From Roseinatronobacter thiooxidans (GTDB lineage: Bacteria; Pseudomonadota; Alphaproteobacteria; Rhodobacterales; Rhodobacteraceae): 64,000 nt of DNA. The position numbers were made by a program, and so were the translations under genes. Location of the stretch: assembly GCF_001870675.1 (NCBI RefSeq), contig NZ_MEHT01000005.1:1-64000 (forward strand). Direction: 5' to 3'. The notes beneath the pieces are model-generated. The model did not search any database. It saw only the letters and a program-made list of their open reading frames with translations, and was not told the origin of the DNA. This document shows, piece by piece, positions 1,641 to 60,749 of this stretch (positions are counted from its first letter, which is position 1; every line of letters starts with the position of its first letter).

Positions 1641-1848
1641 CATACCCTGCGCGGAATCAAGGGCTGCAGGCCCGCCGCGCCTCAAAGGGCCGCACCCACG
1701 GCACGGCGAGTTGGCTTGGCTATGCGCATAGCCTTGATCTTACGCGGATTTGGCCAGCATAAAGCGCAATAGCACAGGGCGGGGATCGCAGCACCGCGGC
1801 CCGACGCTGCGCGGCTTAGCACCCAGAACTGCCATGTCCGCAAAGTCC
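1641..1848 (-). repeat. Dispersed intergenic repeat, copy A
   Basis: This is a full copy, in reverse orientation, of a roughly 200-bp element also found at 9725-9920 and 51187-51394, with part of it at 58735-58794. Shared landmarks, read in element orientation, are GCAGCGTCGGGCC, CTTTATGCTGGC, AAATCCGCG, AGCCAAGCC and CGCCGTGCCG. Copy A is the most diverged full copy, yet it keeps the paired stems: a perfect 16-bp palindrome at 1721-1736 (GGCTATGCGCATAGCC) stands where copies B and C have an imperfect hairpin. It lies between the convergent transporter and cytochrome genes. No protein-coding capacity is conserved. Confidence 0.85.
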
Positions 1849-9020: not shown

Positions 9021-9716
9021 ATGCAGCGTATCGTCATCCTGACCGGCGCGGGCCTGTCTGCCGAAAGCGGGCTTGGCACCTTCCGCGACAAGGGCGGGTT
9101 GTGGACGAAATATGATCTGGAAGATGTCGCCACCCCGCAAGGCTTTGCCCGCAACCCCACGCTGGTACATGAATTCTACAACGCGCGGCGTGCAAATTGT
9201 CTGGGCGCACAGCCCAACCCCGGGCATGACGCGCTTGCACGTCTACAGCGTGCCGCCCCCGACCGCGTCACACTGGTGACACAGAATGTCGATGACCTGC
9301 TGGAACGCGCGGGCGCGCCCTCGGTCATCCATATGCACGGTGAACTGACCCGCGCGCTCTGTGCGGCCTGCACCCATCGCTGGGACGCCCCCTACCAAAT
9401 GGCCCCGACAGACCCCTGCCCCGCCTGCGCAGCACCCGCCACGCGCCCTGATATCGTGTGGTTCGGGGAAATGCCCTATTACATGGAACAGATCGACGCG
9501 GCCTTGCAGCGGGCCGATCTGTTCGTGGCCATCGGCACATCCGGCAATGTCTACCCGGCGGCGGGGTTTGTGCAGGAAGCTGCCTTCGCAGGGGCACGGA
9601 CGCTGGAGTTGAATCTGGAGCCTTCGGCCACTGTGTCCCTGTTCGACGACGCCCGGTTCGGGTTGGCGAGCACGGTGGTGCCGGAATGGGTGGCGGAAGT
9701 GTTGGGGGGCGGGTGA
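9021..9716 (+). CDS. cobB: NAD-dependent protein deacylase (sirtuin, CobB)
   Basis: The 231-residue protein is a class III sirtuin that removes acyl groups from lysines using NAD+. GAGLSAESGL (10-18) and TQNVDD (87-92) bind NAD, H106 in HMHGE is the catalytic His, and C114/C117/C133/C136 form the zinc site. Y53 and R56 (FYNARR) reproduce the Y-x-x-R pair that lets E. coli CobB and SIRT5 accept succinyl-lysine, so desuccinylation is plausible. It lies 4 nt after uvrC, suggesting co-transcription, which is not an obvious functional pairing. Confidence 0.93.
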   Translation: MQRIVILTGAGLSAESGLGTFRDKGGLWTKYDLEDVATPQGFARNPTLVHEFYNARRANCLGAQPNPGHDALARLQRAAPDRVTLVTQNVDDLLERAGAPSVIHMHGELTRALCAACTHRWDAPYQMAPTDPCPACAAPATRPDIVWFGEMPYYMEQIDAALQRADLFVAIGTSGNVYPAAGFVQEAAFAGARTLELNLEPSATVSLFDDARFGLASTVVPEWVAEVLGGG

Positions 9717-9724
9717 TTTCATCC

Positions 9725-9920
9725 GTTGGGGGACATTGTAGAGTTGACCCAAGCCGCGCAGCGTCGGGCCGTGGTGCGGCGACCCTCATCCTCTGCTACA
9801 GCACTTTATGCTGGCAAAATCCGCGAAAGATCGAGGCTTTGCGCGTAGCCAAGCCAAATCGCCGTGCCGGGGTACGGCCAGGCGATGCGCGGCGGGCCTG
9901 CGGCCCTCGATTCCGCGCGA
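9725..9920 (+). repeat. Dispersed intergenic repeat, copy B
   Basis: This copy is nearly identical to copy C (51187-51394) through its centre, from GCACTTTATGCTGG to CGCCGTGCCGG, with scattered differences outside. Its predicted structure includes TCGCC...GGCGA enclosing GCCG-GGGTA-CGGC and the small hairpin GGGCC-TGC-GGCCC. It fills most of the 312-bp gap between cobB and the metallophosphoesterase gene, both on the plus strand. A short open frame crosses it, but it is not conserved as protein between copies. Confidence 0.9.
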
Positions 9921-10028: not shown

Positions 10029-11243
10029 ATGGGGTTTCGATTCATTCATACAGCCGATCTGCATCTCGACAGCCCGCTGCGCAGCCTTGCGCTGCGTGAC
10101 CCTGATCTGGCGGAACTGATCGCCGATGCCTCTCGGGCGACCTTTCGCAATATTGTTGACCTGTGCATCAGCGCGCGGGTGGATGCGCTGCTGATTGCGG
10201 GCGATCTGTATGATGGCAGCCAGACCAGCATGAAGACCGCGCGTTTTCTGGCGGCGGAACTGGCGCGGCTGGACCGTGCGGGCATTCGCGCTTTCATCAT
10301 TCGGGGCAATCATGACGCCATGTCCCAGATCAGCCGCGAATTGACACCGCCGCCCAACGCCCATGTATTCGACGGGCGCGCAGGTGTGGAAACCCTGACA
10401 CAAGGCACCATGCAGGTGGCCATTCACGGCTTGAGCTTCCGCGACCCCCATGCCCCCGACAGCCTGCTGCCAAAATACCGCCCGCCTGTGGCGGATGCTG
10501 TCAATATCGGGCTGATGCATACCTCGCTCAACGGCACATCCGGCCATGACCCCTATGCGCCCTGCACGCTGGCCGATTTGCAGGCGCATGGGTTCGACTA
10601 CTGGGCTTTGGGCCATATCCACAAACGCGCGGAATATCCCGGCCCTGCCCATGTCACCATGCCCGGCATCCCGCAGGGCCGCGACATTGGCGAGGCGGGC
10701 GCAGGCAGTGTGACGCTGGTGCATATCGAAGACAGTGGCCACATCACCACCGAGGCGCGCGTCGTGGCGCTCGCGGGCTTTGCGCAGGTCGAGGTGGATG
10801 TCACAGGGCTGGACGACTGGCGCGCGCTGCAAACTGCCATTGAGACAAGCTTGGAGGGCGCGCGCCTGCCCTGCCCGCATCTGGTCGCGCGGCTGCGGGT
10901 GGTGGGCGACAGCCCCCTAGCACCGCGCCTGCTGCGCGACCGCGATCTGGCGCAGGCAGAGGCACAAGAGCTTGCCAAAGCGCTGCAAGGTGTCTGGGTG
11001 GAAAAACTGGTGCTGGATTTGGGCGCGCCTGTGCCGGTGGCGGGGGCGCTGGGGGCGCTTGCGGCGCTGATCGACAGCGATATTCGCCCCAGTGCGGCCT
11101 ATGCGCAGGCTGTGGACGCGCTGCGCCGCGATCTGGAATCCGCCCTGCCACCAGAGGCGCGCGATGCTGTCGCCACACTCGACCCCGCCGCGATGGATGC
11201 GGGCCTTGCAGAAGTGCTTGCGCGGTTGCGGGGTCAGGGCTGA
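10029..11243 (+). CDS. SbcD/YhaO-like metallophosphoesterase (DNA exonuclease subunit)
   Basis: The 404-residue protein has the complete metallophosphoesterase signature: HTADLHLDSP (near residue 6), GDLYDG (about 58), RGNHDA (about 95), a later MHT and GHIHKR. These residues bind the two Mn ions of Mre11/SbcD-type nucleases. The start at 10029 was chosen because MGFRFIHTADLH begins the domain. Its stop overlaps the start of the large ATPase gene by one base (TGATG), so the pair is translated together. By analogy with Bacillus YhaO and E. coli SbcD it should process DNA ends or hairpins. The substrate is inference. Confidence 0.88.
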   Translation: MGFRFIHTADLHLDSPLRSLALRDPDLAELIADASRATFRNIVDLCISARVDALLIAGDLYDGSQTSMKTARFLAAELARLDRAGIRAFIIRGNHDAMSQISRELTPPPNAHVFDGRAGVETLTQGTMQVAIHGLSFRDPHAPDSLLPKYRPPVADAVNIGLMHTSLNGTSGHDPYAPCTLADLQAHGFDYWALGHIHKRAEYPGPAHVTMPGIPQGRDIGEAGAGSVTLVHIEDSGHITTEARVVALAGFAQVEVDVTGLDDWRALQTAIETSLEGARLPCPHLVARLRVVGDSPLAPRLLRDRDLAQAEAQELAKALQGVWVEKLVLDLGAPVPVAGALGALAALIDSDIRPSAAYAQAVDALRRDLESALPPEARDAVATLDPAAMDAGLAEVLARLRGQG

Positions 11244-48953: not shown

Positions 48954-51122
48954 ATGCATATGCCCTTGCCCCTGACCCGCGATCTGGTGCTGATCGGTGG
49001 CGGGCATACCCATGCGCTGCTGCTGCACCGCTGGGCGATGCATGCTTTGCCGGGGGTGCGGCTGACCCTCATCAACCCCGACCCTGTCGCACCCTATACG
49101 GGCATGTTGCCGGGCTATATTGCAGGCCATTACACACGCGAGGACTTGGACATCGACCTTGTCCGCCTTGCGCGCCGCGCGGGCGCGCGGCTGATACTGG
49201 GCAAGGCCACAGGGCTGGACCGCGCGGCACGGCTGGTGCATGTCGCAGGCCGCCCGCCGGTTGCCTATGATCTGGCCGCGATTGACATTGGCATCACGTC
49301 AGATTTGCCGATGATCCCCGGATATGCCGATCATGCCGTGTCCGCCAAGCCGCTGGGCGGGTATGCGCAGCGCTGGGAAAACTGGTGCGCGCAGCTGGCG
49401 CGGGGCGAGGTTGCGCCAAGCATTGCTGTCATCGGCGGCGGTGTCGCGGGGGTGGAACTGGCGCTGGCAATGGCCTACCGGCTGCGGGGACAGGCGGCGC
49501 GGATCACGATTGTGCAATCGGGGGCGCTGTTGCCCAATATCGGCGCACAGGCGCGGGCGCGGCTGATCGGGCATCTGAAACGTGCCGCTGTTACCATTGT
49601 GGAACAGGCACAAGTGACCGAGGTCACGCAACAAGGCATCGCGCTGGCAGATGGCACGCAACTACCGGCCAGTCTGGTGCTGGGCGCGGCAGGCTCGCGC
49701 CCGCAAGGCTGGCTGCGCAACACAGGGCTGGACCTGACGCAAGGATTCATCACAGTCGATCCTTATCTGCGCTCAATCACAGACCCCGCGATCTTCGCTG
49801 TGGGCGATTGCGCGCATATGGCCCATGCGCCGCGCGCGAAAGCGGGGGTCTATGCCGTGCGCCAAGCGCCCTATCTGTTCGACAACTTGCGCGCGGCACT
49901 TGGGGTGGGGAATTTGCGCGCCTACCAGCCGCAGCGCGACTACCTGAAGCTTGTCTCGCTGGGTGGCAAGACCGCGCTGGCCGATAAATGGTCCTTGCCG
50001 CTGGAAGGAGGGTGGCTTTGGGGGCTGAAAGACCGGATTGACGCCAAATTCATGGGCCAGTTTCGCAACCCCCAGCCCATGCCCCCTGCGCTGCCGCCCG
50101 CTTATGCCAATGGGCTTGCCGAAGCTTTGGGCGATAAGCCCCTATGCGGCGGGTGCGGGGCCAAAATGGGTGCGCAAACCCTGCGCGCGGCCCTGCCAGA
50201 CGTGACTCGCGCGGATATTGAGGCAGGCATTGGCGACGATGCCGCGATCCTGCGCATCGGCGATGCGCGGCAAGTGATTGCGACCGACCATCTGCGCGCG
50301 CTGAGTGATGACCCGTGGTTGATGGCGCGCATTGCGGCCACTCATGCGCTTGGTGACATCTGGGCGATGGGCGCGCGCCCGCAAGCCGCGCTGGCGCAGG
50401 TGACCTTGCCGCGCATGTCCCCCGATTTGCAGGCCCGCACCCTGCGCGAAGTGATGGCAGGCGCGCAATCGGTGCTGGAACCGGCGGGTGTGGCGCTGGT
50501 TGGCGGTCATAGCGCGATGGGGGCCGAGATGCAGTTGGGCTTTACTGTCACTGGCCTGCTGGACGGGCCAGCGCGCACCAAAGCAGGCGCGCAGCCCGGC
50601 GATATGTTGGTTCTGACCAAACCCTTGGGGACTGGGGTGATCATGGCGGCAGAGATGCAATGGGCCGCACCCGGCGCAGTGGTAGCGGGTGCGCTGCGGG
50701 CGATGGTGCAGGCGCAGGGGCACGCGGCGGAACTGCTGGCCCCCATGGCCCATGCAATGACCGATGTCACGGGCTTCGGGCTGGCAGGGCATCTGGCCGA
50801 GATGCTGGCGCAAGACGGGCTGTCAGCGCGGCTGGATTTGGCGGCACTGCCCCTACTGGACGGGGCAGAGGCGTTAGTTGTGGCGGGGCATTATTCCAGC
50901 ATTGCCGCAGACAACCGCGCAGCACTTGGGGCCATGCTAGAAGCACCCGATACAGCCCGCGCAGCCCTGCTGGTGGACCCGCAGACCGCAGGCGGATTGC
51001 TGGCCGCTGTTGCGCCCGCACAGGCCGCGGGTATTTTGGACAGCCTGCAAGCGGCGGGCTATGGGGCGGCGATTATCGGCGAGATTACGGGCCGCGACGG
51101 GCCGCGTATTGTTGCGCGATAG
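48954..51122 (+). CDS. selD: Selenide, water dikinase fused to a pyridine-nucleotide oxidoreductase
   Basis: SelD makes selenophosphate from selenide and ATP. The 722-residue protein joins an N-terminal NAD(P)/FAD oxidoreductase domain (GGGHTHALLL near 15, GGGVAGVELALA near 160, GDCAHMAH near 283) to a C-terminal SelD domain starting at about 395. There CGGCGAK holds C398, C401 and K404, corresponding to the catalytic Cys/Lys motif, followed by GDDAAIL and VGGHSAMGAE. A Cys rather than selenocysteine is used. The ATG has CCGGAG at good spacing. The oxidoreductase domain may supply reduced selenium; this is inference. Confidence 0.92.
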   Translation: MHMPLPLTRDLVLIGGGHTHALLLHRWAMHALPGVRLTLINPDPVAPYTGMLPGYIAGHYTREDLDIDLVRLARRAGARLILGKATGLDRAARLVHVAGRPPVAYDLAAIDIGITSDLPMIPGYADHAVSAKPLGGYAQRWENWCAQLARGEVAPSIAVIGGGVAGVELALAMAYRLRGQAARITIVQSGALLPNIGAQARARLIGHLKRAAVTIVEQAQVTEVTQQGIALADGTQLPASLVLGAAGSRPQGWLRNTGLDLTQGFITVDPYLRSITDPAIFAVGDCAHMAHAPRAKAGVYAVRQAPYLFDNLRAALGVGNLRAYQPQRDYLKLVSLGGKTALADKWSLPLEGGWLWGLKDRIDAKFMGQFRNPQPMPPALPPAYANGLAEALGDKPLCGGCGAKMGAQTLRAALPDVTRADIEAGIGDDAAILRIGDARQVIATDHLRALSDDPWLMARIAATHALGDIWAMGARPQAALAQVTLPRMSPDLQARTLREVMAGAQSVLEPAGVALVGGHSAMGAEMQLGFTVTGLLDGPARTKAGAQPGDMLVLTKPLGTGVIMAAEMQWAAPGAVVAGALRAMVQAQGHAAELLAPMAHAMTDVTGFGLAGHLAEMLAQDGLSARLDLAALPLLDGAEALVVAGHYSSIAADNRAALGAMLEAPDTARAALLVDPQTAGGLLAAVAPAQAAGILDSLQAAGYGAAIIGEITGRDGPRIVAR

Positions 51123-51186
51123 CGGACAGATGGTTGCTATTTCGCGCTGAGTGAGAACAAGAGTGTCATTCAGGGGTCGGCTATGG

Positions 51187-51394
51187 GGGGCTTTGCAAAC
51201 ATAGCGAATATGGGTGCAAAGCCGCGCAGCGTCGGGCCGTGGTACGGCGATGCGGGCTTTGAGCTATAGCACTTTATGCTGGCCAAATCCGCGAAAGACC
51301 GGGGCTTTGCGCGTAGCCAAGCCAAATCGCCGTGCCGGGGGACGGCTCGGCGATGCGCGGCGGGCCTGCGGCCCTTGATTCCGCGCGGAGTATG
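51187..51394 (+). repeat. Dispersed intergenic repeat, copy C
   Basis: This full copy lies between convergent selD and selU. It matches copy B almost base for base through the centre and copy A over its whole length, including the outer segment toward 51187 (GCAAAGCCC block). Conserved hairpins are TCGCC-GT-GCCG-GGGGA-CGGC-TC-GGCGA (where copy B differs only in loop and internal-loop bases) and GGGCC-TGC-GGCCC. The rest of the 360-bp gap between the two genes shows nothing else. Confidence 0.9.
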
Positions 51395-51482
51395 TAAACA
51401 ACACCTTCTAAGCTGTCCTTGAATATTGCCCGTCAGATGGCCGACACCTTCGGCACACCACCACCATCACGCTTGCAGATTC

Positions 51483-58684: not shown

Positions 58685-58734
58685 TGTTCTTCAAGCGGCA
58701 CACATTACCCAGATGAGGGGGCCAAGTGTCGGGC

Positions 58735-58794
58735 TGCACCGCGGCCCGACACTGCATGGCTTAACACTCTAGAATAAGAGCGTCCGTAAAGCCC
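58735..58794 (-). repeat. Dispersed intergenic repeat, partial copy D
   Basis: This segment matches the outer 60 bp of the element, in the same orientation as copy A: GCACCGCGGCCCGAC is identical to copy A at about 1790-1804, and the following GGCTTA...GTCCG-AAAG.CCC block is shared with diverged bases between. The rest of the element is missing. A 9-bp stem GTGTCGGGC/GCCCGACAC (58726-58734 with 58744-58752) is formed at its edge, 42 bp after the DUF305 stop. Confidence 0.7.
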
Positions 58795-58869: not shown

Positions 58870-59544
58870 TCATGGCAGGAAGCGCGGCCAGATTGCCACG
58901 CCGGACAGCCCCTGATGGCCCGCAATCAAAGCGCCCAGACAGAGCAGCCCAATCGCAAGACGCAGTGTCGCATTCGGTGGCATGCAAAGCCGTGCATGGC
59001 GGCAGCGCGCGCGCAGGGCGTGCCAGTCGGCAAGGCCCATTTCACGTTGTTTGCGCCGGTCGATCAGCACCATGCCAAGCCCTGCAAACCCGGCAAAGCC
59101 TGCAAACATCAGCCCATGCGCAAGATCACCATTTGCGATCAGATGTACGCCTGCCCATAACCCAAGCGCCACAAGCACAGGGTGGCGCAGCCATCCTGTC
59201 AGCTCGGGCCGGTCAGGGTCGAAGCGGTGGTTGCCTGCGCCACCGAAAGAAAAGGGGTTGGGCCGCCCGAGTGTCAGGCTAAGCAGCACCACCGCAGGCA
59301 CCATACCTGCAAGCACGATCCAATGCGCGCTTGCGGGCATTGGCCAAAGGGGCACATGCGGCGCATGCGCCGCTGCGATGAACAGCAACGCCAGTACCGC
59401 CAGCGACAGGGCGGAATAGGCCCAACCGAAGCCTGTCTGGCCCAGTGTTGCAACCAGCCACGGCTTCACAGGCGCGCGCACAGGCACAGAATGGCTTAGC
59501 ACAAACAGCGCCCATGCGCCCGCATACAGGCCCCAGCCGCTCAT
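58870..59544 (-). CDS. nnrU: NnrU family membrane protein
   Basis: NnrU is a membrane protein of denitrifiers and related bacteria, distantly like NnrU/isoprenylcysteine methyltransferase-type proteins; it is linked to nitric oxide or nitrite metabolism but its reaction is unknown. The 224-residue protein has about six membrane segments and the conserved FVLSHSVPVR, RPNPFSFGGAG and LTGWLRHPVLVALGLWA blocks. It overlaps the nnrS stop by 4 nt (ATGA). No nitrite or nitric oxide reductase genes are in the window. Confidence 0.9.
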   Translation of the reverse strand: MSGWGLYAGAWALFVLSHSVPVRAPVKPWLVATLGQTGFGWAYSALSLAVLALLFIAAAHAPHVPLWPMPASAHWIVLAGMVPAVVLLSLTLGRPNPFSFGGAGNHRFDPDRPELTGWLRHPVLVALGLWAGVHLIANGDLAHGLMFAGFAGFAGLGMVLIDRRKQREMGLADWHALRARCRHARLCMPPNATLRLAIGLLCLGALIAGHQGLSGVAIWPRFLP

Positions 59545-60749
59545 GCAGGGCGCGCGGCGCTCACCGCTTTGGCGGCGCGTTTGGGGCGTGTCAGAATGGG
59601 CCAGTACAGGACAGAGAACCCGCCAAAGGCCACAATCCACAATGTGGCGGACAGGTGCAGCAGCCACCCCTCGCCCGGCCAGACCCCGGCCAGCAGGCGC
59701 GCGAGTGTCGCGGCGATCAGTGCCAGATACAGGGCTGCGACAGGGCGCGTGGCGGTCAGGGGCAGGCCCGCATGGCCAAGGCTGGCGCGGGTCATCACTG
59801 CCAGTGTCATCAGCCCGATGGCACCTGCCAGCCAGACATGGCGCGCGCCCGAATGGGGCAACAGGGCGAATGCGGCGGCCCCCACTGTCACAAACCCCAG
59901 TGCAAGCATCGCATAGGCTGCATGCAACACCCAGACCAGCGGTTCGGCACGGGTCTGGTGCCCTTGCCAGCGCGACAGCCGCCAGAAATTCGCACCACCC
60001 GCCGCAAGGCACAGACTGGCCGTCAGGCCGCTTTCCGGCAGGGTCACAAAGGCCAACAATGCCGCGCCCGTCAGGCCCAGCACAACGCCATCCGCGCGGT
60101 TCATCGCCACCGGCAGGCGCTGGGCCTGCTGCTTGGCCAGAAAGTTGCGGGTAAAACTGGGCACAACCCGCCCGCCGATCAGGGTGATCAGCATCAGCAC
60201 AGCGCCAAGCCCCAGCCGCAAGCCATAGCCGTCATGTGCTGGCCCTTGTGCTGCCTCAAGGTGAAAGAGTGCATTGGCCAGCGCGAAAAGCACGACCAAC
60301 CCAAGCACCGGCAGGTTGCGCCAGTTGCGCCCTGTGACAATCTCTCGGGCCAGAAACCCGATCAATGCCAATGGCAGCGCCAGATCAAGTGCGGCGACAA
60401 GCCCTGCGGGCCAGTTGGCCCCCACCAACAGGGCCACCCGCCCAAGCGCCCACAGCGCCACCAACCCCGCCAGCGGCCAGCCGACGACAGGCAGCCGCCC
60501 TGTCCAATTTGGCACTGCGGTCAGCAAGAAACCGGCGATGACAGCCGACAGATAGCCGAAGACGAACGCATGCACATGCCAATCCATGGGGGCAAAGGCT
60601 ATGGGCAACGGGTCTGCCCCTGCCAGCAACACCACCCAGAACGCCATCGCAAAAGCGGCCCAAACCCCCGAGAGCAGGAAAAATGGCCGGAACCCGTAGC
60701 TAAGCAAGGCCGGTCCGGTCCAGTTGCGGCTGGCAGTGGCAGTGTTCAT
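59541..60749 (-). CDS. nnrS: NnrS family heme-copper membrane protein
   Basis: NnrS is a 12-helix membrane protein that binds heme and copper and lowers the damage caused by nitric oxide. The 402-residue protein begins LLSYGFRPFFLLSG, has the MDWHVHAFVFGY His motif near residue 58 and the GGRVVPSFTRNFL and later His-bearing segments typical of the family. The ATG is at 60749. A divergent Rrf2-type regulator with cluster cysteines adjoins it, which strongly suggests NO-responsive control. Confidence 0.92.
   Translation of the reverse strand: MNTATASRNWTGPALLSYGFRPFFLLSGVWAAFAMAFWVVLLAGADPLPIAFAPMDWHVHAFVFGYLSAVIAGFLLTAVPNWTGRLPVVGWPLAGLVALWALGRVALLVGANWPAGLVAALDLALPLALIGFLAREIVTGRNWRNLPVLGLVVLFALANALFHLEAAQGPAHDGYGLRLGLGAVLMLITLIGGRVVPSFTRNFLAKQQAQRLPVAMNRADGVVLGLTGAALLAFVTLPESGLTASLCLAAGGANFWRLSRWQGHQTRAEPLVWVLHAAYAMLALGFVTVGAAAFALLPHSGARHVWLAGAIGLMTLAVMTRASLGHAGLPLTATRPVAALYLALIAATLARLLAGVWPGEGWLLHLSATLWIVAFGGFSVLYWPILTRPKRAAKAVSAARPA

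Follow-up and report, generated by a model that had tools for sequence, protein, structure and literature searches.

A covarying intergenic repeat of the Rhodobacteraceae, probably a non-autonomous mobile element

Copies of the repeat in the window

The window, i.e. the whole stretch of DNA that was analysed, comprises 64,000 nucleotides of Roseinatronobacter thiooxidans (NZ_MEHT01000005.1), the genome of which amounts to 3.5 Mb in 50 contigs. A structured repeat (copy C) lies in a gap between convergent frames bordering it at 51122 (+) and 51483 (-); by Pfam the neighbours are a pyridine-nucleotide-disulphide oxidoreductase/AIR-synthase fusion and a rhodanese-domain protein. Copy A is located between convergent frames (1547, +; 2037, -), an MFS transporter and a frame at 2037-2972 that gave no Pfam match at E <= 0.001. 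The latter minus-strand frame holds three head-to-tail 123-nt (41-codon) DNA repeats (2332-2658, 63-80% identity). Copy B lies between tandem frames (9716, +; 10029, +), assigned by Pfam to the Sir2 family (9021-9716) and to a metallophosphatase (10029-11243). Copy D is again flanked by convergent frames (58684, +; 58870, -); the frame at 58870-60012 is NnrU by Pfam, although it was missed by the home-made gene caller. The sequence-only reading of this DNA had placed three of four copies between convergent genes, which was borne out for A, C and D. The features are as follows.

51219..51386 (+), copy C core (model positions 1-165); 148 bits, E 1.7e-29 with covariance model R1, copy C itself being in the training set
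51221..51251 (+), copy C, 5' strand of the long-range fold; from the consensus fold and pair counts of 74 cores, coordinates by eye
51252..51325 (+), copy C, central loop, in which the CACTTTATG motif is conserved
51326..51361 (+), copy C, 3' strand; partner of the 5' strand, or engaged in the local ATCGCC/GGCGAT pairing
51355..51386 (+), copy C, terminal hairpin GCGCGG...CCGCGC with inner hairpin GGGCC-TGC-GGCCC; compensatory changes in copies not picked by the search pattern
9751..9918 (+), copy B core; 133.7 bits, outside the training set
1649..1817 (-), copy A core; 121.7 bits, inside the training set
58721..58763 (-), copy D, deleted remnant that retains a 10-bp hairpin AGTGTCGGGC/GCCCGACACT; by eye, with 35 nt that are 86% identical to copy A
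51152..51473 (+), approximate span of the additional DNA at copy C (core plus arms) relative to relatives without the element; ends by eye, imprecise

Copies A (1641-1848, -), B (9725-9920, +) and C (51187-51394, +) of the earlier reading were thus all recovered by the model, with the core scores listed. Its partial copy D (58735-58794) exists as a remnant but shrinks to the hairpin at 58721-58763, which the model matches only at E = 0.29, so that the call rests on the identity to copy A.

Core anatomy and the folding strand

The conserved unit is a core of ~165 nt that starts AAGCCGCGC and ends TTGATTCCGCGC; the ~200-bp repeat proposed earlier is real, but its greater length includes arms found in this genome. 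For alignment A1, 74 of 127 aligned cores were used (mean column identity 65%); truncated, long-insert and similar cores were omitted. RNAalifold returned one long helix for these 74 cores, in which a 5'-side segment of ~30 nt is paired with one of ~36 nt towards the 3' side, enclosing a loop of ~75 nt. Of its 2532 cells, 92.1% are paired over 35 pairs, 21 of which show double changes; columns 17-141, 18-140 and 19-139 each contain three or four Watson-Crick pair types. Covariation was measured by pair counts against shuffled and slid controls. The long-range fold scored 0.324 compared with 0.103 for shuffled alignments (0 of 500 reached it) and 0.026-0.057 for slid partners, over which the fold has an advantage because the structure was derived from the same alignment. 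The covariation on which the earlier reading depended is therefore present.

The stems that it named exist and persist despite sequence change, and its local stem TCGCC...GGCGA covaries across the family (90.1% of 739 cells paired, score 0.194 versus 0.053). This stem is only one of two mutually exclusive pairings, however; the long-range helix and the terminal hairpin had been missed. As helix and local stem both covary, the AUCGCC strand has two partners: columns 35/119/147 read A-T-A in 50 and C-G-C in 16 of 72 sequences.

The terminal hairpin, composed of GCGCGG, the inner hairpin, TTGATT and CCGCGC, covaries too. Its letters are fixed by the search pattern and it was therefore judged on pattern-free copies, which made up 33 of 150 aligned matches (alignment fitted to the model); 28 of them have letters at all positions. 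The hairpin is changed in 15 of these 28. Nine keep six Watson-Crick pairs (GTGCGG/CCGCAC, GCACGG/CCGTGC twice, GCGTGG/CCACGC and GCCCGG/CCGGGC five times), although these do not represent nine independent events since several come from the same genomes. The other six do not; two of them keep five pairs plus one G-U and one is an antisense match. Changes in the terminal hairpin are tracked less well by the 5' strand.

Within the loop, 66 of 74 cores have TTTAT, and 28 of 30 own copies have CTTTATGC. No reading frame is open in all 30 own cores (the best is open in 17 of 30), and protein coding was rejected. The earlier suggestion of selection on a folded RNA or DNA hairpin rather than on protein is supported. 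In five cores (L089, L097, L103, L117 and L193) inspection by eye showed an extra palindrome of a few tens of nucleotides within the 3' strand, close to the terminal hairpin, which looks like the insertion of another short repeat.

The inner helix of the 74 cores contains 103 G-U cells against 13 A-C cells over about 14 pairs (bootstrap range of the ratio 4.7-20.2), the counts being of cells and not of independent events. The 30 own copies (G-U 98, A-C 6) add little because three almost invariant columns account for 85 of the 98 G-U cells. Were the fold equally important on the two DNA strands, G-U and A-C would be expected in similar numbers; the excess of G-U therefore strongly suggests that the fold is formed by one strand, and the strand read here probably folds singly, as RNA or as single-stranded DNA. 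A like strand argument is given for REPs by Di Nocera et al. (PMC3733652).

Distribution, gene context and turnover

The window's genome yielded at least 44 blastn matches at E <= 0.001 (40 of 104 candidates scored; a few are pieces near another copy) and at least 49 covariance-model matches at E <= 0.01 (150 of 3751 candidates scored), numbers that exclude a chance origin. The 49 consist of 41 full-length copies, seven short or partial ones and one match that is another copy read on its reverse strand. Some of the copies recovered had served to train the model; 38 of the 41 full-length copies lie outside the training set. Mean identity between own cores is 86% (maximum 98.8%) and part of the spread therefore looks fairly recent.

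Among 120 genomes of the family, one per genus and including the own genome, 54 match the model at E <= 1e-4, so that the further copies anticipated by the earlier reading were found within the genome and beyond it. One match was obtained in 16 of these 54, two to eight in 15 and nine or more in 23; 12 contain 20 or more copies and the top count is at least 24. At most 24 matches were scored per family genome, so that the copy numbers are minimum values and an absence applies to the sensitivity of this search. In a class-wide sample (at most 15 scored each, stricter filters) 2 of 190 genomes match, both from the window's family. Matches were found by blastn in 15 of 23 same-genus genomes and in 0 of 16 genomes from other families. 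A search for the 3'-end pattern in a collection of species genomes gave at least 116 stretches; among the matches listed, 80 titles are of Rhodobacteraceae type or of unplaced alphaproteobacteria. One core (L171) belongs to a record whose title is Enemella evansiae (Actinomycetota); the contig may be a contaminant. Among the matches listed, the pattern is carried by a single viral contig, IMGVR_UViG_3300037604_000085 (L178, 8516-8545), the copy of which clusters in the tree with that of a Roseovarius MAG; one query of phage records gave no match.

Several subfamilies often coexist within one genome (tree with 49 of 116 forks weak). In this tree the closest named locus to the own copies bears the title Roseinatronobacter, with moderate support. 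The element is also found on plasmids, and no feature was annotated under it in the annotated plasmid records. In NZ_CP054600.1 (L260) and NZ_CP086789.1 (L259), at polymorphic plasmid sites, a subfamily was observed in which GCCCGG/CCGGGC replaces GCGCGG/CCGCGC; it would escape searches keyed to CGCGC.

Gap classes were assigned with the home-made gene caller. The 47 own copies counted, which exclude copy D of the window, lie in 27 convergent, 18 tandem and 0 divergent gaps, with none inside called genes and two at contig edges. The 113 loci from other genera, a few of them truncated and one from the viral contig, comprise 54 convergent, 39 tandem, five divergent and 15 unclassified; the 15 same-genus loci comprise five, seven, one and two, respectively. 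Background gaps at the same loci (n = 387) are 41 convergent, 240 tandem and 106 divergent, corresponding to odds ratios for convergent gaps of 12.7 for own copies (p 3e-13) and 10.4 for other genera (p 1e-19). The median distance to gene 3' ends is 67-89 nt. In tandem gaps, own and other-genus copies together are sense in 29 cases and antisense in 28. The element is therefore rare at promoter sites and independent of the direction of its tandem neighbours, and a sense-strand 3'-UTR element is disfavoured by this neutral orientation.

Eight relatives were read at the 51187 site. Seven of them (G003, G005, G006, G008, G013, G019 and G021) have a short intergenic gap from which the element is absent, while the eighth (G007) carries one complete copy and the beginning of a second, which belongs to another subfamily. 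In Pseudosulfitobacter pseudonitzschiae plasmids, a full copy follows repB in SM26-46 where SC1-28 and H46 carry loop-deleted forms; after the CoA-transferase gene one subfamily is found in forward orientation (H46) and another reversed (TT37-68). Four own short forms (L179, L180, L181 and L185) have likewise lost the loop and kept much of the stem. One genome (G111) contains head-to-tail arrays with periods near 200 bp plus tail-only modules. Neither a clean empty site nor a target duplication was obtained at 51187, where the relatives are too diverged, or at the compared plasmid sites, which are occupied by other forms; a CTAG duplication read by eye was unconfirmed.

Own cores lie within arms of 60-80 nt, which were sorted by eye into types A (nine copies) and B (20 with full arms); some ends resemble terminal inverted repeats by eye. 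As a secondary observation, the core may be inverted relative to the arms in some copies: compared with the other group, seven of nine type A arms score higher inverted, two by a wide margin and L026 by only 0.7, whereas those of L001 and L003 and all 20 of type B score higher uninverted. One flanking arm without a core was noted in the own genome (L051, C45:12955-13030). In CP069022 a bare core takes up all but 15 and 13 nt of a 192-bp convergent gap. The arms may be additions particular to a lineage, or else an older element that encloses the core. That the repeat inserted into a palindrome already in place, at which the arms hint, was rejected since their inverted repeats exceed chance in few copies only.

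Known repeats, possible movers and interpretation

BOX elements are defined by boxA-boxB-boxC modules of pneumococcal sequence. RIMEs are Rhizobium-specific intergenic mosaic elements; by general description these too are alphaproteobacterial intergenic mosaic repeats, but they belong to another order. In Streptococcus pneumoniae (PMC3049150), BOX, RUP and SPRITE are small structured interspersed repeats of modular size, thought to be parasitic, with an excess in convergent gaps. The present element resembles them in being small, interspersed, structured and over-represented in such gaps; it differs in host group and, by description, in sequence, and one covarying core fold is shared here across genera. 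REPs are described as palindromes of 20-40 bp with frequent G-T pairs in their stems, lying mostly in convergent or same-direction gaps, and those tagged CGTC as mostly alphaproteobacterial and apparently without a dedicated transposase (PMC3733652). CGTC was seen by eye in own-genome copies and is replaced in many other genera. In place of a tagged 20-40 bp hairpin, the element has a core of ~165 nt with a loop of ~75 nt and a separate terminal hairpin, and the window's genome gave no match to a RAYT/Y1 gene. By analogy the element appears to behave like the BOX, RUP and SPRITE repeats and the REPs. With MITEs in general (PMC10969869) it has in common that it is short, non-coding, non-autonomous, intergenic and multi-copy; possible differences are that no consistent terminal inverted repeats or target duplication were found at the copies and sites compared, and that its fold is apparently one-stranded. 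As the tested REP/RAYT features fail and no reliable terminal inverted repeats were seen, it was filed under neither.

The earlier remark that no named family matches agrees with Rfam 15, in which the window has no match and five loci searched at E up to 10 gave seven weak matches, all far below gathering scores. No description of the repeat was found among the openly licensed papers searched.

Candidate movers were sought by gene content. Y1 (PF01797) is present in 12, Y2 in 16 and reverse transcriptase (PF00078) in 38 of the 120 family genomes. Of these three, Y2 alone occurs in the window's genome, with no match to Y1 and no reverse transcriptase, so that a group II intron or retroelement with its enzyme in the same genome was not found there. 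In the own and 14 same-genus genomes no Y1 match lay above the cut-off and two weak ones lay below it; the Y2 search was positive in 0 of 14 control genomes. Across the 120 genomes, copy number was not significantly linked to Y1 (smallest p 0.052, copies >= 9), to reverse transcriptase (smallest p 0.075, copies >= 1) or to Y2, and none of the three was retained as the mover.

The core has a covarying fold and subfamilies, occurs in 1 to at least 24 copies per genome, differs in presence between relatives, decays by internal deletion and lies near gene 3' ends. Three options had been offered for it: a mobile non-autonomous element, a transcript-end structure and a small RNA family. The first fits best because the element is present or absent at orthologous sites, its copy number is patchy and it has no orientation bias in tandem gaps. 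It is accordingly read as a Rhodobacteraceae-wide non-autonomous mobile element with a folded single-stranded form and a putative trans-acting mover, with a probability of about 0.62.

An unlikely rival is a functional RNA family, a trans-acting sRNA or transcript-end structure that the host maintains and that has been copied to numerous loci. It would account for the excess of G-U over A-C, the conserved loop motif, the position 67-89 nt (median) from gene 3' ends and the switch-like character of two covarying alternative pairings in one strand. Against it stand the 66 of 120 family genomes without a match at the threshold used, copy numbers from 1 to at least 24, the 29 to 28 orientation in tandem gaps, the absence of the element from the 51187 site in seven of eight relatives and the decay of copies in place.

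An ordinary MITE, i.e. an internally deleted IS remnant with terminal inverted repeats moved by a DDE transposase, is similarly improbable. The arms that flank own-genome cores, with their TIR-like ends and varying orientation, would agree with it; yet inverted repeats between the arms beat 99% of shuffles in only 2 of 42 own, 10 of 111 other-genus and 2 of 14 same-genus copies, and the own mean (13.8) is not above that of mismatched pairs (14.1). Bare cores without arms occur, core ends are alike directly in 58 and inverted in 32 of 74 cores, and an excess of G-U over A-C would be unexpected if only double-stranded ends were important.

Least probable, with little chance of being correct, is a DNA-level chromosome element (a protein or gyrase site or a cruciform) kept in convergent gaps to manage supercoiling, for which the BIMEs of E. 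coli offer a comparison: the convergent odds ratios of 12.7 and 10.4 suit it, whereas the G-U/A-C asymmetry, the patchy presence among family genomes and the occurrence on plasmids do not.

For the mobile element, a putative protein supplied in trans would recognise the folded single strand, as single-stranded DNA or RNA, and the same protein would insert new copies; insertions would survive mainly in convergent gaps and downstream of genes. From the strand specificity of the fold, a folded single-stranded form would be expected at some stage, and it would most likely serve as the mover's substrate. Part of the spread may reflect vertical inheritance with loss, and the loop motif found family-wide could serve a host function. 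More speculatively, the element might be a bacterial counterpart of SINEs, with a folded single-stranded DNA or RNA intermediate, two covarying folds, an unrecognised enzyme acting in trans and head-to-tail arrays formed beside its own terminal hairpin; we regard this as a tentative possibility.

Nearly half of the genera sampled (54 of 120) in this large and ecologically important bacterial family carry the element. Its fold, which covaries, has two alternative states and is apparently specific to one strand, points to an enzyme or binding partner acting in trans, which should be possible to find, and the covariance model provides a way to annotate intergenic DNA that is now anonymous.
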